From a virus: a DNA stretch of 53,014 bases. Both the position numbers and the translations under genes were made by a program. The first letter of the stretch is position 1. Each line of letters starts with the position of its first letter. Below are positions 17,165 through 44,408 of the stretch, in pieces. The notes under the pieces were generated by a model. The model saw only the letters and a list, made by a program, of their open reading frames with translations, was not told the DNA's origin and did not search any database. The stretch lies in IMG/VR virus record IMGVR_UViG_3300042914_003037, positions 1 to 53,014 of that record, one strand, 5' to 3'.

Positions 17165-17254
17165 TGGCGGGTAGTGAGGGATTCGAACCCCCGAGGGCAT
17201 TTCTGCCCTAACTGCTTAGTAGGCAGCCGCCATAGTCCGCTCGGCCAACTACCC
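17165..17254 (-). tRNA. tRNA-Ser(ACT)
   Basis: Acceptor GGGTAGT/ACTACCC, G73, encoded CCA, D-arm GCC/GGC, anticodon stem GCTGC/GCAGT, loop CTACTAA, long variable arm. A34 for a serine AGU codon is unusual in bacteria; tRNA-Ser(GCT) also exists at 27875. Confidence 0.85.
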
Positions 17255-17263
17255 AAATATTTT

Positions 17264-17893
17264 TCACTCAGTATTTAGTGATGAATTAGTCTGTTGAATT
17301 TTTTGTCTTTTCTCTAACTTCTTACGAAGTAGAGTATGGATTCCAGGATTAATTCTAAGTACATTAGGCATAAATTCGTGCCTAATATAATTGCGAGTAT
17401 AACGAGTATCGTTATTACTAAAATCTTCAATCCACCGAACATTTTTTCTACGCGCCCAATTTTCTAAATCATACTTTCTATTTAATAGAAATGGTCGAAT
17501 GACATTGTTGCGTCTGTATGGTAGCAATTTGCTTTGTCCGTGCAAACTACTCCACGCCCATGTTTCTACTACATCGTCAAGATGATGCCCGGTAACAACA
17601 CACTCAAATTGACTTAAAAATTCATATCTCTTGTCTCTCCAGTATTCTTCCGCACTTAGTTTGAGAGGAATTGACGAATCCTCAATTCGCTTAGTGATAA
17701 GATTCAAGTTTCTATCTGAGCATTCCCGTGTAATGAAGTCGAGAGCACGATCACTGGTTTCTGTTCCGTGATGAAAGAATGCAACATTTACTGCATGGTT
17801 GCGAGAGAGAAAGTCAAGCAACACCATACTATCGATTCCGCCGCTACACGCGACAGTCACGACACGAGGAATTGACCCAAGAATCTTGATCAC
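17264..17893 (-). CDS. tilS: tRNA(Ile)-lysidine synthase
   Basis: 209 aa PP-loop ATPase: CSGGIDSM (ATP loop), GHHLDDVVETW, RPFLLNRKYDLENWA and NNDTRYTRNYIRHEFMP are diagnostic for TilS, which turns C34 of tRNA-Ile(CAU) into lysidine so it reads AUA. It is the short catalytic form without the C-terminal domains of E. coli TilS. GTG start overlaps the upstream TGA (GTGA). A matching tRNA lies at 33171-33247. Confidence 0.9.
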   Translation of the reverse strand: MIKILGSIPRVVTVACSGGIDSMVLLDFLSRNHAVNVAFFHHGTETSDRALDFITRECSDRNLNLITKRIEDSSIPLKLSAEEYWRDKRYEFLSQFECVVTGHHLDDVVETWAWSSLHGQSKLLPYRRNNVIRPFLLNRKYDLENWARRKNVRWIEDFSNNDTRYTRNYIRHEFMPNVLRINPGIHTLLRKKLEKRQKIQQTNSSLNTE

Positions 17894-25993: not shown

Positions 25994-26069
25994 TGGAGCG
26001 GGTAACCGGGTTCGAACCGGTGACATCTTCCTTGGCAAGGAAGTGCTCTACCAACTGAGCTACACCCGC
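25994..26069 (-). tRNA. tRNA-Gly(GCC)
   Basis: GCGGGTG acceptor, loop TTGCCAA, T73, CCA encoded; fully canonical. Confidence 0.93.
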
Positions 26070-26070
26070 A

Positions 26071-26175
26071 TTTTATTGAAACACATTAGTACCAAACTTT
26101 TTCGCCCCGGGCCGGCCTATATGTCTATGCATCGTAGCGTTGGTCCTTGACGGGTGTTCAAATGCGCTTCAATAA
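26071..26175 (-). ncRNA. stem-enclosed structured RNA F
   Basis: Long terminal stem: TTTTATTGAAGCGCATT pairs with AATGTGTTTCAATAAAA with two G-U pairs. Inner TTGA-ACACCCG-TCAA hairpin. Same plan as RNAs A-E but different sequence. Confidence 0.5.
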
Positions 26176-26384
26176 AATGTCGTTGCTACCACTACCACAT
26201 GGCCCACCGACCGAGTTGCTTACCCTGTCACGACGATATTTTATATGGAAGGGTATCGTGTCCTCCTAAGGTATTTTCAAGACGCCCATGTTAAGACGGG
26301 CCTTGCGGTAAAATCCCTACGCACCGCGTGGTTATGGTAACCACAATACCCACTTTTGTAAAGCCAAAGTGTAAGACTGGTTAC
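26176..26384 (-). ncRNA. structured non-coding stretch
   Basis: No reading frame. Minus-strand hairpins GTGGTTA-CCA-TAACCAC, GCCC-N10-GGGC and CACTTT/AAAGTG. Lies between two tRNA-Gly genes; probably a transcribed RNA of unknown role. Confidence 0.35.
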
Positions 26385-26459
26385 TGGAGCGGGTGACAGG
26401 GATCGAACCTGCGACGAACAGCTTGGAAGGCTGACACTCTACCACTGAGTTACACCCGC
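26385..26459 (-). tRNA. tRNA-Gly(TCC)
   Basis: GCGGGTG acceptor identical to tRNA-Gly(GCC), loop CTTCCAA, T73, CCA encoded. Confidence 0.93.
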
Positions 26460-26469
26460 GTTGTCTAAC

Positions 26470-26524
26470 AGAATGCCTTTTTGTCAAATTACAATTTTGA
26501 TTTTATGTTTGCTGTAAGCATTCT
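26470..26524 (-). ncRNA. minimal CAGCAA-stem RNA 1
   Basis: AGAATGC/GCATTCT stem, TTACAGCAAAC inside, one hairpin TCAAA-ATTGTAA-TTTGA, A-rich AAAAAG on the 3' side. Sister copies at 29151 and 36983. Confidence 0.55.
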
Positions 26525-26530
26525 AAATTT

Positions 26531-26605
26531 TGGTTGCGGGCCCTGGAGTCGCACCAGGTATCTACAGGTTATGAGCCTGTCGGGTTACTGTCTCCCTCGC
26601 CCGCA
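26531..26605 (-). tRNA. tRNA-Met(CAT) with altered elbow
   Basis: TGCGGGC/GCCCGCA acceptor, A73, CCA; anticodon ACAGG-CTCATAA-CCTGT. D-loop AGACAGTAA lacks GG and T-loop is TGCGACT (G55 instead of U55). Acceptor resembles initiator tRNA but with a U1-A72 pair. Confidence 0.85.
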
Positions 26606-26612
26606 ATATAAC

Positions 26613-26801
26613 TTATTTATACTTGTTTAACCACGGAACTTCTTGCCAATACCCTTCAGTATAATACTCAAGATTTCCCTGATTGTTTATTCTGTAATCT
26701 CCATGTTTATCTGTTTCACTATGTTCATAGTGTATCATCGTATTGCTATGATTGTCAATCAATTGTTTATCCATTTGTTTATCCAATTTTTCATCTTTCA
26801 T
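26613..26801 (-). CDS. hypothetical protein (62 aa)
   Basis: MKDEKLDKQMDKQLIDNHSN ... WQEVPWLNKYK. Polar, His/Asn-rich. An AATAAATAT late-type box sits about 5 nt before ATG; no Shine-Dalgarno. Function unknown. Confidence 0.5.
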   Translation of the reverse strand: MKDEKLDKQMDKQLIDNHSNTMIHYEHSETDKHGDYRINNQGNLEYYTEGYWQEVPWLNKYK

Positions 26802-27084: not shown

Positions 27085-27102
27085 ACAGAAAATTATTATA
27101 AC

Positions 27103-27219
27103 AGGTTCTCTTTTTAAGTGCTACCACTACACCAATACTGCCGACCAAACAGTATCTGGGATTCGAACCCAGCCCTTCTTTTTTTCTGAAAGTTTAAAAT
27201 TATTTGCTGAAAAGAACCT
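27103..27219 (-). ncRNA. Y-RNA-like RNA with permuted tRNA module
   Basis: Terminal stem AGGTTCT/AGAACCT, TTTCAGCAAATA inside, hairpin CTTT-CAGAAAA-AAAG, T-arm CTGGG-TTCGAAT-CCCAG, acceptor strand ATACTGT, 7-nt loop TTGGTCG, acceptor strand GCAGTAT, TG, D-arm GTG-TAGTGGTAG-CAC, then TTAAAAAG. 3' half precedes 5' half: a circularly permuted tRNA fold, same loop length as the RNA at 15183. Confidence 0.75.
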
Positions 27220-27230
27220 AATGGTCTATT

Positions 27231-27795: not shown

Positions 27796-27802
27796 ACATT
27801 AT

Positions 27803-27871
27803 TTTGGCAGTGAGTGTGGGATTTGAACCCAAACCTGCGTTTTTTTTCAATCATGCTGGATAGGCAAATTA
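27803..27871 (-). pseudogene. tRNA 3'-half remnant
   Basis: CCA, G73, acceptor strand ACTCACT and T-arm TGGG-TTCAAAT-CCCA, but no matching 5' acceptor strand or D-arm upstream. Reads as a truncated tRNA. Confidence 0.5.
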
Positions 27872-28986: not shown

Positions 28987-29106
28987 TGGTGTCGCCGCTG
29001 AGATTCGAACTCAGGTTTCTTCCTTGGAATGGAATAAGAAATTGCTGAACGTACTCTATACAGAGTCACCCTTTTTTAAGCGTCCTAACCACTAGACGAC
29101 AGCGAC
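28987..29106 (-). ncRNA. tRNA-like RNA with CAGCAA stem in anticodon position
   Basis: Normal tRNA ends: GTCGCTG/CGGCGAC, A73, CCA, D-arm GTCTAGTGGTTAGGAC, T-arm CTGAG-TTCGAAT-CTCAG. Between them: A-rich AAAAAAGG, hairpin GTGACTCT-GTAT-AGAGTAC, GTTCAGCAA, then hairpin TTCC-ATTCCAA-GGAA. These are the Y-RNA-like parts in unpermuted order. The last loop could read as a TCC anticodon, so an interrupted tRNA-Gly is the alternative. Confidence 0.65.
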
Positions 29107-29150
29107 AAAAATTCTGAACGGGTTTGCACCGTAATCAAAATGTTTTAAAC

Positions 29151-29204
29151 AGAATGCTTTTTTTCACCAATTGAAAGTTGTGTAAGATTTGCTGTAAGCA
29201 TTCT
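29151..29204 (-). ncRNA. minimal CAGCAA-stem RNA 2
   Basis: AGAATGC/GCATTCT stem, TTACAGCAAAT, hairpin CAA-CTTTCAA-TTG, A-rich 3' side. Confidence 0.55.
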
Positions 29205-29210
29205 AAAATT

Positions 29211-35605: not shown

Positions 35606-35874
35606 TGGCTCCCTGTCGTGGGATCGAACCACGGACCAACAGATTCTGGTTTGTGTGACTTTCGCCACTCCCTGGACTTTATCTTGACCATAGCATTTCT
35701 GCCTTAGGCCCCTGCCGTCAAGTCTCTACACGTTCCCATTTCTGGGCTTCGCTCGGTATTGCCATATGCTTTCGCACTTAGATTTCACCGAATTTGACAG
35801 GATTTTCAACTACTGTTTCCAGTAGAAGTGTCAATTTCTAACAGTCTGCTGCTCTACCGCTGAGCTAACAGGGA
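35606..35874 (-). tRNA. tRNA-Asn(GTT) with group I intron
   Basis: Exons give TCCCTGT/ACAGGGA, G73, CCA, D-arm GCTCAGCGGTAGAGC, anticodon GCAGA-CTGTTAA-TCTGT. Intron 35646-35839 (194 nt) interrupts after U36. Confidence 0.85.
35646..35839 (-). other. group I intron in tRNA-Asn
   Basis: P1: exon TGTT with GACA in the intron (U-G at the splice site). P2 hairpin CTACTG-GAAA-CAGTAG. Core strings AATTCGGTGAAA (P), AATACCGAGCGAAGCC (Q), GTGTAGAGACTTGACGG (R), AAGATAAAGTCC (S); intron ends in G. Resembles the small tRNA introns of bacteria (IC3-like). No internal ORF. Confidence 0.85.
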
Positions 35875-36166: not shown

Positions 36167-36249
36167 TGGTGCCCTAACTCGGACTCGAACCGAGAAGCCG
36201 AAGCAGTAGATTTTGAGTCTACCGTGTTTACCAATTTCACCATCAGGGC
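36167..36249 (-). tRNA. tRNA-Leu(CAA)
   Basis: GCCCTGA/TTAGGGC, A73, CCA, loop CTCAAAA, class II arm. Confidence 0.92.
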
Positions 36250-36974: not shown

Positions 36975-36982
36975 AATATAAC

Positions 36983-37042
36983 AGAATGCTTTTTTACGAG
37001 TCAAATTAGTAGTTTGATGTATAAGTTTGCTGTAAGCATTCT
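36983..37042 (-). ncRNA. minimal CAGCAA-stem RNA 3
   Basis: AGAATGC/GCATTCT, TTACAGCAAAC, hairpin TCAAA-CTACTAA-TTTGA, AAAAAA on the 3' side. Confidence 0.55.
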
Positions 37043-37049
37043 AAAACTT

Positions 37050-43859: not shown

Positions 43860-44408
43860 TTAAAGTTTGCAACTTTCGCAAGAACTATCGTCTTCGTCAG
43901 ACTCGACTACTGGATTGAACTGAATTATTTTTTCATCCTCTTCTTTTAATGCCGCCTTTGCACCCATTTTATTGATGAGACTGTAATAGTATGTCTTGAG
44001 TCCCCAGTGAATTCCAAGCATTAGATTTTTAGTTATCAGTGTTGCTGGTATTTTCCCTTTGCTGTAATTTGCTGGGTTATAGAAAGTGTTTGTGCTGATA
44101 CTTTGATCTACATATGCTGCCAAAACAGCAGCAGTTTTCAAATAATCAACACAATCAGTTTGATTCCACATCAATTGATAGCGATTCTTGAGACGCTTGT
44201 ATTCTGGAACAACTTGAACAAAACTTCCAGCCTTGCTTTCTTTCACACTTATCAATTCCATTGGCATTTCTATGCCATTAGTGCTGTTCAATACCACCGA
44301 AGAATTGTGCGACACACAACCGTTAGGCAATGCATACGCTCCGCTTTTTGTAGTTATATCATAAGTTGGCACTGTTTCAATATTTCTATTAATTTTTTTG
44401 ATTTTCAT
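43860..44408 (-). CDS. nrdA: split intein C-part + NrdA C-terminal extein
   Basis: 182 aa: residues 1-35 are an intein C-fragment (VPTYDITTKSGAYALPNGC then VSHN, blocks F and G) followed by Ser+1. Residues 36-182 are the end of NrdA (STNGIEMP ... KLKNRYQLMWN) with the redox tail ESCKL. Joined with the N-part the extein length equals the E. coli NrdA loop exactly. Confidence 0.9.
   Translation of the reverse strand: MKIKKINRNIETVPTYDITTKSGAYALPNGCVSHNSSVVLNSTNGIEMPMELISVKESKAGSFVQVVPEYKRLKNRYQLMWNQTDCVDYLKTAAVLAAYVDQSISTNTFYNPANYSKGKIPATLITKNLMLGIHWGLKTYYYSLINKMGAKAALKEEDEKIIQFNPVVESDEDDSSCESCKL

Follow-up and report, generated by a model that had tools for sequence, protein, structure and literature searches.

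Bacterial Y RNAs are known tRNA mimics. One of them, YrlA, has been proposed to inhibit an anticodon nuclease by competition (PMC7790460), and in Deinococcus a Y RNA tethers Rsr to PNPase, according to work cited in a passage of the same paper. Phage Ro-like proteins and YrlA-type RNAs are already known (work cited in passages of PMC12282133 and PMC7824862). Particles of Listeria phage CKA15 contain the Ro-like protein, it has been suggested that abundant phage non-coding RNAs are Y RNAs (PMC12282133), and the ROT/TROVE proteins of jumbo phages have been placed among RNA-repair systems (PMC7824862). In the part of the journal and preprint literature that we covered there is no description of a CAGCAA module across large phages, of small forms with an anticodon loop or of tRNA-ordered Y RNAs. 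The window studied here is the whole 53,014-nucleotide stretch of IMG/VR virus record IMGVR_UViG_3300042914_003037. It contains a gene that has the order of a tRNA and carries a Y RNA-type module, together with permuted and small relatives and a gene for a Ro60/Rsr-like protein (Table 1).

Table 1. The hybrid gene, its parts, its relatives and the Ro-like gene in the window
Feature	Position	Strand	Evidence or remark
tRNA-ordered Y RNA/tRNA hybrid	28987..29106	minus	120 nt including CCA; 95 bits with hybrid model R2 (gene in training set)
Acceptor 5' strand GTCGCTG	29100..29106	minus	7/7 pairs with 28991-28997
D-arm GTCTAGTGGTTAGGAC	29082..29097	minus	4/4 pairs
nt 27-28 (CT), outer split anticodon stem	29079..29080	minus	pairs with 42-43 (AG)
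Inserted 45-nt Y RNA-type module, between nt 28 and 29	29034..29078	minus	hybrid alignment
A-rich strand AAAAAA	29072..29077	minus	sequence; equivalent place in permuted and small RNAs
P1 hairpin GACTCTGTATAGAGTAC, loop-closed	29051..29067	minus	P1 columns covary, 20 hybrids
CAGCAA element	29042..29047	minus	nearly invariant in hybrids
Anticodon hairpin TCC-ATTCCAA-GGA + AG (42-43), anticodon UCC	29019..29033	minus	
T-arm CTGAG-TTCGAAT-CTCAG	28998..29014	minus	5/5 pairs
Acceptor 3' strand CGGCGAC, discriminator A, CCA	28987..28997	minus	sequence
Permuted relative (P1 holds ends; T-arm, loop-closed acceptor, D-arm)	27102..27220	minus	
Small family RNA, hairpin loop ATTGTAA (UGU)	26466..26527	minus	R1 59 bits
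Small family RNA	29147..29207	minus	R1 64 bits
Small family RNA, hairpin loop CTACTAA (ACU)	36979..37045	minus	R1 57 bits
Y RNA-like RNA, 15 bp upstream of Ro-like gene	15036..15132	minus	R1 24 bits, E 0.03; P1 AGATTAG/CTAATCT
Permuted Y RNA-like RNA upstream of Ro-like gene	15178..15299	minus	R1 31.5 bits; tRNA-like arms
Third Y RNA-like RNA upstream of Ro-like gene	15552..15659	minus	R1 24 bits, E 0.04; P1 GGGATAG/CTATCCC
Ordinary tRNA-Gly(UCC)	26385..26459	minus	anticodon identical to hybrid's
Ro60/Rsr-like protein, 461 aa	13636..15021	minus	DUF2828 + DUF7788 vWA; phrog_850 'RNA-binding protein'

Anatomy of the hybrid gene and its relatives in the window

The sequence-only reading had described the gene as having normal tRNA ends with encoded CCA, a D-arm and a T-arm, and this is borne out to the nucleotide: the acceptor is paired at 7/7 positions (including one G-U), the D-arm (GTCT..GGAC) at 4/4 and the T-arm at 5/5. 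There is also an insert at the anticodon position, as that reading had it, of 45 nt (TAAAAAAGGGTGACTCTGTATAGAGTACGTTCAGCAATTTCTTAT) rather than about 50, which consists in order of an A-rich strand, the short hairpin P1, CAGCAA and a linker. The hairpin that had been taken to end the insert is present, but it is the anticodon stem-loop itself, with U33 and the anticodon UCC. The arm reads C27 T28, then the module, then T29 C30 C31, ATTCCAA and G39 G40 A41 A42 G43, and both halves of its stem are still paired (27-28 with 42-43 and 29-31 with 39-41) below the loop AUUCCAA. The acceptor, D and T arms and CCA of a canonical tRNA are therefore all present, and the anticodon arm, uninterrupted in a canonical tRNA, is interrupted by the 45-nt module between nt 28 and 29. 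In the single gene the site of the module is ambiguous (27/28 or 29/30 would be equally good) because of a run of T; 28/29 is the family consensus. The P1 of this hybrid is weak, with 5 bp (ACTCT/AGAGT) and G-C and G-U pairs past a bulge.

The gene is missed by ARAGORN and by the Rfam tRNA model (RF00005 at gathering), Rfam at a permissive threshold gives no family for it and blastn against phages gives no match. Its single-sequence fold is no better than those of shuffles (z -1.1) and the case therefore rests on comparison. With R2, a covariance model of hybrids whose training set includes this gene, it scores 95 bits against at most 51.5 bits for the normal tRNAs of the window. An independent copy (L001) was found by pattern in IMG/VR.

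The hybrid and the RNA at 27103 had been proposed to be circular permutations of one design. The data uphold this, in that the A-rich strand, P1 (loop-closed in the hybrid) and CAGCAA are common to hybrid and permuted RNAs and in both orders the module is placed alike, within the 5' strand of the anticodon stem. The hairpin loop of the RNA at 27103 is CAGAAAA, which is less canonical than that of the hybrid. This RNA was considered as a permuted tRNA precursor and ruled out, since its acceptor loop is too short and it has no CCA. The RNAs at 15036-15132 and 15552-15659 are weak by score with R1, the covariance model of the small RNAs (E 0.03-0.04), but have P1 stems of 7 bp. A further hybrid candidate near 36230 spans two normal tRNAs and was rejected.

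Small Y-type RNAs often terminate in a look-alike of an anticodon stem-loop, with a 7-nt loop, U33 and A37 A38. Examples are the window RNAs at 26466-26527 and 36979-37045 and RNAs from L118, L246, L247, L251, L253, L255 and L257; the loops correspond, for instance, to Lys UUU, Asn GUU, Met CAU, Ser GCU and Ile GAU.

Several other features of the window were recorded. Five RNAs on the minus strand (33351-33262, 32910-32758, 32095-32029, 30992-30872 and 29481-29379) are closed by a near-identical stem of 16-20 bp, ATATTTCA[AG]C[AG]C ... GTGTTGAAATAT. Their interiors are very different (60-160 nt), one holding a T-arm-like hairpin, and they are possibly a second structured-RNA family, of which a sixth, divergent copy may be near 26170-26075. 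There is a 3' tRNA half with a T-arm and a GCCA end, and with no obvious 5' half, at 27800-27860 (minus), with a tRNA-Ser on one side and, on the other, a probable tRNA-Trp (~27800-27725) missed by tRNA finders. An ORF at 17264-17893 (minus) encodes a TilS-type PP-loop ATPase (PF01171) that may be a tRNA-lysidine synthase of the phage, and adjoins tRNA-Ser(ACU) at 17165-17254. An intein appears to divide the large subunit of ribonucleotide reductase encoded at 43860-47788 (minus), and an endonuclease-like ORF separates the portions.

Family members in other phages and their link to a Ro-like gene

When a small RNA was used as blast query, unannotated relatives were recovered from phages of Aeromonas, Vibrio and Xanthomonas and from uncultured phages; Felix-O1-type phages in turn contain relatives of these. 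A pattern scan of IMG/VR (TTACAGCAAA..AAAAAGC) gave mostly chance matches and led to one contig, L118, with family RNAs and a Ro-like gene. There are three architectures at the fetched loci. The small form consists of P1 and a hairpin. In the permuted form P1 holds the ends (...CUG / AG...) and is followed by a T-arm, an acceptor capped by a short loop and a D-arm. In the tRNA-ordered form the acceptor is open and P1 carries a cap, in most cases a loop of 4 nt (CU-GNNA-AG; CU-GUAU-AG in the window hybrid). The free RNAs begin with AG and finish with CUG, and the capped P1 therefore resembles a joining of their termini. All architectures have in common P1, CAGCAA, the A-rich strand and a genomic association with the Ro60/Rsr-like phrog_850. 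In the small RNAs P1 covaries, with double changes at 9/9 pairs, and 94.7% of cells are paired, against 63% in shuffled and 34-51% in slid alignments; CAGCAA is invariant in this alignment, the sequences of which were selected for CAGCAA.

Copies of the hybrid were sought with a Python detector and with R2. They are found in KVP40-type Vibrio phages, GAP32, XbC2, Aeromonas phages, Citrobacter Ci1, a 735-kb phage and several IMG/VR contigs. The detector gave about 35 candidates, of which roughly 30 are solid; one, L149, is an artefact formed by two adjacent permuted RNAs. Among 20 aligned hybrids 93.7% of cells are paired (57% shuffled, 34-44% slid), and there is covariation in all helices, with double changes at 26 of 28 pairs, including both of the 27-28/42-43 pairs. 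On these comparative grounds the tRNA-ordered form is a real class that recurs in many unrelated large phages. In Vibrio phage VH7D (W02 116222-118661) there are five R2 hybrid matches within 2.5 kb, at one edge of the tRNA array, and phage nt-1, which can infect Vibrio natriegens, has four hybrids.

The split stem is kept in both orders. Nucleotides 27-28 pair with 42-43 in 16/17 hybrid matches, against a mean of 7.0 and a maximum of 14 in 20,000 shuffles that retained sequence kinship. The same pairing is present in 15 of the 22 permuted RNAs that have a canonical anticodon hairpin (mean 4.5 and maximum 12 in 20,000 shuffles, kinship again retained). These 22 are the only ones among 66 permuted RNAs to pass a strict test for a canonical anticodon loop, and anticodon mimicry is therefore not universal. 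The anticodon loops of the hybrids are canonical (UUU, GUU, GUC, UUC, UGU, UCC and others). The module is at 28/29 in most hybrids, at 29/30 in 8/39 candidates and in the anticodon loop in 7/39.

Three Y RNA-like RNAs lie directly upstream of the gene at 13636-15021. Its product matches DUF7788, and a Pfam search of the window for the TROVE domain (PF05731) gave no match, with DUF2828 in its place. Of 17 homologues of the protein, three match vWA_Ro60 and one matches Rsr weakly, and sequence comparison with the PDB gave matches, also weak, to TROVE/Ro60 vWA entries. The family, phrog_850, is carried by 682 phage records, some of them annotated as Ro-like, and other authors have assigned homologues to Ro using HHpred. 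From DUF2828/DUF7788 and the weak Ro60 vWA matches, the phage protein appears to be Ro60/Rsr-like.

The RNAs and this gene occur together. Among records that contributed no sequences to R1, there are R1 matches in 14/20 Ro-positive and 0/14 Ro-negative records (Fisher 3e-5); the former count is enriched, as some contigs were fetched by RNA pattern, and the latter is unaffected. Full-length hybrids (R2) are present in 18/34 Ro-positive and 0/14 Ro-negative records, training records included. Conversely, phrog_850 is present in 15/20 contigs fetched only via these RNAs, the remaining five being fragments of 9-30 kb. In 11/25 records the distance between the Ro-like gene and an R1 match is at most 600 bp. 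The R1 scan gave no match in six Ro-positive records (G014, G018, W16, W18, W21 and W22), although hybrids are present in G014 and two look-alike RNAs in W16. In the mycobacteriophage MsGreen one permuted RNA lies between two small ones, at most ~300 bp downstream of a gene annotated 'Ro-like RNA binding protein', and the family RNAs of Listeria phage cka16 are found immediately upstream of its Ro-like gene. A ROOL-like RNA was also seen in cka16 (L256 2428-2979; 90 bits, just under the cut-off), at record positions ~26195-26746, the region matching the abundant non-coding region 26,236-26,727 of the related phage CKA15 (PMC12282133).

Fate of the module and possible role of the hybrid

The gene could be an intron-containing tRNA-Gly, the module being excised by an endonuclease and a phage or host RNA ligase to yield an ordinary tRNA-Gly(UCC). 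With the insert deleted, most hybrids regain a perfect stem of 5 bp and a canonical loop, and tRNAscan-based records annotate several hybrids as long tRNAs (a 127-nt tRNA-Lys in GAP32, and others in XbC2 and Vibrio phages). However, the split anticodon arm is also kept in the permuted RNAs, the acceptors of which are closed by loops of mostly 3-10 nt and have no CCA. No tRNA can therefore arise from them, and this argues, as far as sequence can, that the module is not an intron. The module also recurs in free-standing and permuted Ro-linked RNAs, and ordinary isoacceptors are found beside hybrids: Gly(UCC) in the window, Lys(UUU) in GAP32 and XbC2, and Asn(GUU) in VH7D and nt-1. U73 and C2-G71 are GlyRS identity features, and both are absent from the window hybrid whereas the ordinary tRNA-Gly of the window has both. 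Many hybrids end in TCA, GCA or ACA, CCA being encoded in 16/39 candidates. An Rfam search of the 45-nt insert gave no match to a group I or other intron, whereas the real tRNA intron of the window, in the anticodon loop of tRNA-Asn(GUU) (35872-35607, minus), is of group I (Rfam 35653-35851, 59.8 bits). We consider excision quite improbable.

Ro-guided quality control of tRNAs is another role that we think unlikely. Here the hybrid would scaffold a complex of the Ro-like protein and a PNPase-type exonuclease, which would receive tRNAs, fragments or tRNA-modifying enzymes for decay or repair. The tethering of Rsr to PNPase in Deinococcus (cited in a passage of PMC7790460) and the position of jumbo-phage ROT/TROVE proteins among RNA-repair systems (PMC7824862) are consistent with this, but it offers no reason for intact anticodon loops. 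If the hybrid were a regulated tRNA, charged and used in translation and only sequestered or protected by Ro binding, the CCA encoded in the window hybrid and its canonical acceptor, D- and T-arms would be expected. A protein-bound hairpin protruding from the anticodon stem should, however, clash with the ribosome. Moreover, there is an ordinary tRNA-Gly(UCC) with the same anticodon in the window and the hybrid is therefore redundant; such a role is highly improbable. Finally, failure of ordinary tRNA finders and a fold no better than shuffles might be expected of a decaying tRNA pseudogene that had received an insertion by chance, but this is refuted by covariation in all helices across 20 homologues and by independent occurrence in many phage genera.

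We favour the view, with a probability of roughly 0.6, that the hybrid is a tRNA-ordered phage Y RNA which retains its module, is held by the Ro-like protein and serves as a tRNA-like decoy or scaffold. The mature RNA would most likely keep the module, so that P1 and the A-rich and CAGCAA strands bulge from the anticodon stem at 28/29. The phage Ro60-like protein would bind P1 together with the CAGCAA/A-rich junction, and the rest of the hybrid is predicted to adopt a full tRNA fold that comprises the acceptor with CCA, the D-arm, the T-arm and an anticodon loop of canonical form. The Ro-held hybrid should be excluded from translation, yet could engage proteins that act on tRNA via its acceptor, elbow or anticodon loop. 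Its likeliest use would be as a Ro-tethered decoy or scaffold that competes for or captures tRNA-attacking enzymes such as host anticodon nucleases; alternatively, it may pass tRNA-like substrates on to a nuclease that the Ro-like protein binds. Permuted members keep a canonical anticodon hairpin despite a loop-closed acceptor, which we count in favour of the Ro-tethered decoy. Many of the displayed anticodons are targets of known anticodon nucleases, although this is suggestive only. An early role would agree with the finding that Listeria phage particles contain the Ro-like protein (PMC12282133).

A wider idea, which we put forward tentatively and with the odds somewhat against it, is that large phages evolved Ro-held whole-tRNA decoys. 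These would be tRNAs with an intact anticodon loop and a Ro-binding hairpin in the anticodon stem, in both permutations, that absorb or disarm host anticodon nucleases, and the tRNA-ordered form would be a route by which tRNA genes and Y RNAs are converted into one another by circular permutation. The purpose of tRNA mimicry by Y RNAs and the origin of the permuted form become testable questions, as a CCA-bearing, tRNA-ordered Y RNA with a real anticodon loop occurs beside permuted and minimal forms in phages that can be cultured (KVP40-type Vibrio phages, nt-1, GAP32 and Citrobacter Ci1). The 'long tRNAs' of phages and many unannotated RNAs of phage tRNA arrays would also be united under one identity, with a protein that is their likely partner.

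Comparison with known RNAs

A link to YrlA-type Y RNA had been suggested from the sequence. Adjacency to the Ro-like gene, co-occurrence with it and the MsGreen RNA speak for such a link, but no RNA of the window reaches the gathering cut-off of Rfam YrlA (RF02553, 69 bits). There is a weak YrlA overlap in the window at 26014-26108 (21.5 bits), the hybrid gene and the RNA at 27103 give no YrlA match even at E<5, and the best related phage RNAs score 39-45 bits. One of these is the permuted RNA of MsGreen (39 bits), which carries CAGCAA and the A-rich strand.

The hybrid shares with canonical tRNA (RF00005) the acceptor-CCA, the D-arm, the T-arm and a 7-nt anticodon loop with U33, and differs in the 45-nt module in its anticodon stem and in a score below the curated one. 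Permuted tRNA genes of algae and archaea give mature tRNA by means of a splicing motif and an acceptor spacer that can be cleaved. The permuted phage RNAs resemble them in being circular permutations of a tRNA, but their acceptor loops are short and their module is Ro-linked. The Y-type RNAs of MsGreen have the same CAGCAA, A-rich strand and P1 as those of the window, and no tRNA-ordered form was seen among them. In YrlA, which occurs in bacteria and mycobacteriophages, D-, T- and acceptor arms of tRNA type are attached to a helix, with a link to a Ro/Rsr gene; YrlA shares with the permuted phage RNAs their order and the A-rich strand that precedes the 3' side of the end helix. Unlike the phage family, it lacks both CAGCAA and an anticodon hairpin in its Rfam consensus, and its anticodon-like stem runs into another helix; the hybrid differs further from YrlA in its tRNA order, open acceptor and CCA. 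In the wider sense of a Y RNA, a tRNA-like domain with a conserved end helix that is encoded with a Ro60/Rsr-type protein, the family has D, T and acceptor arms joined to a covarying P1 module, and the phrog_850 gene is present in the window.
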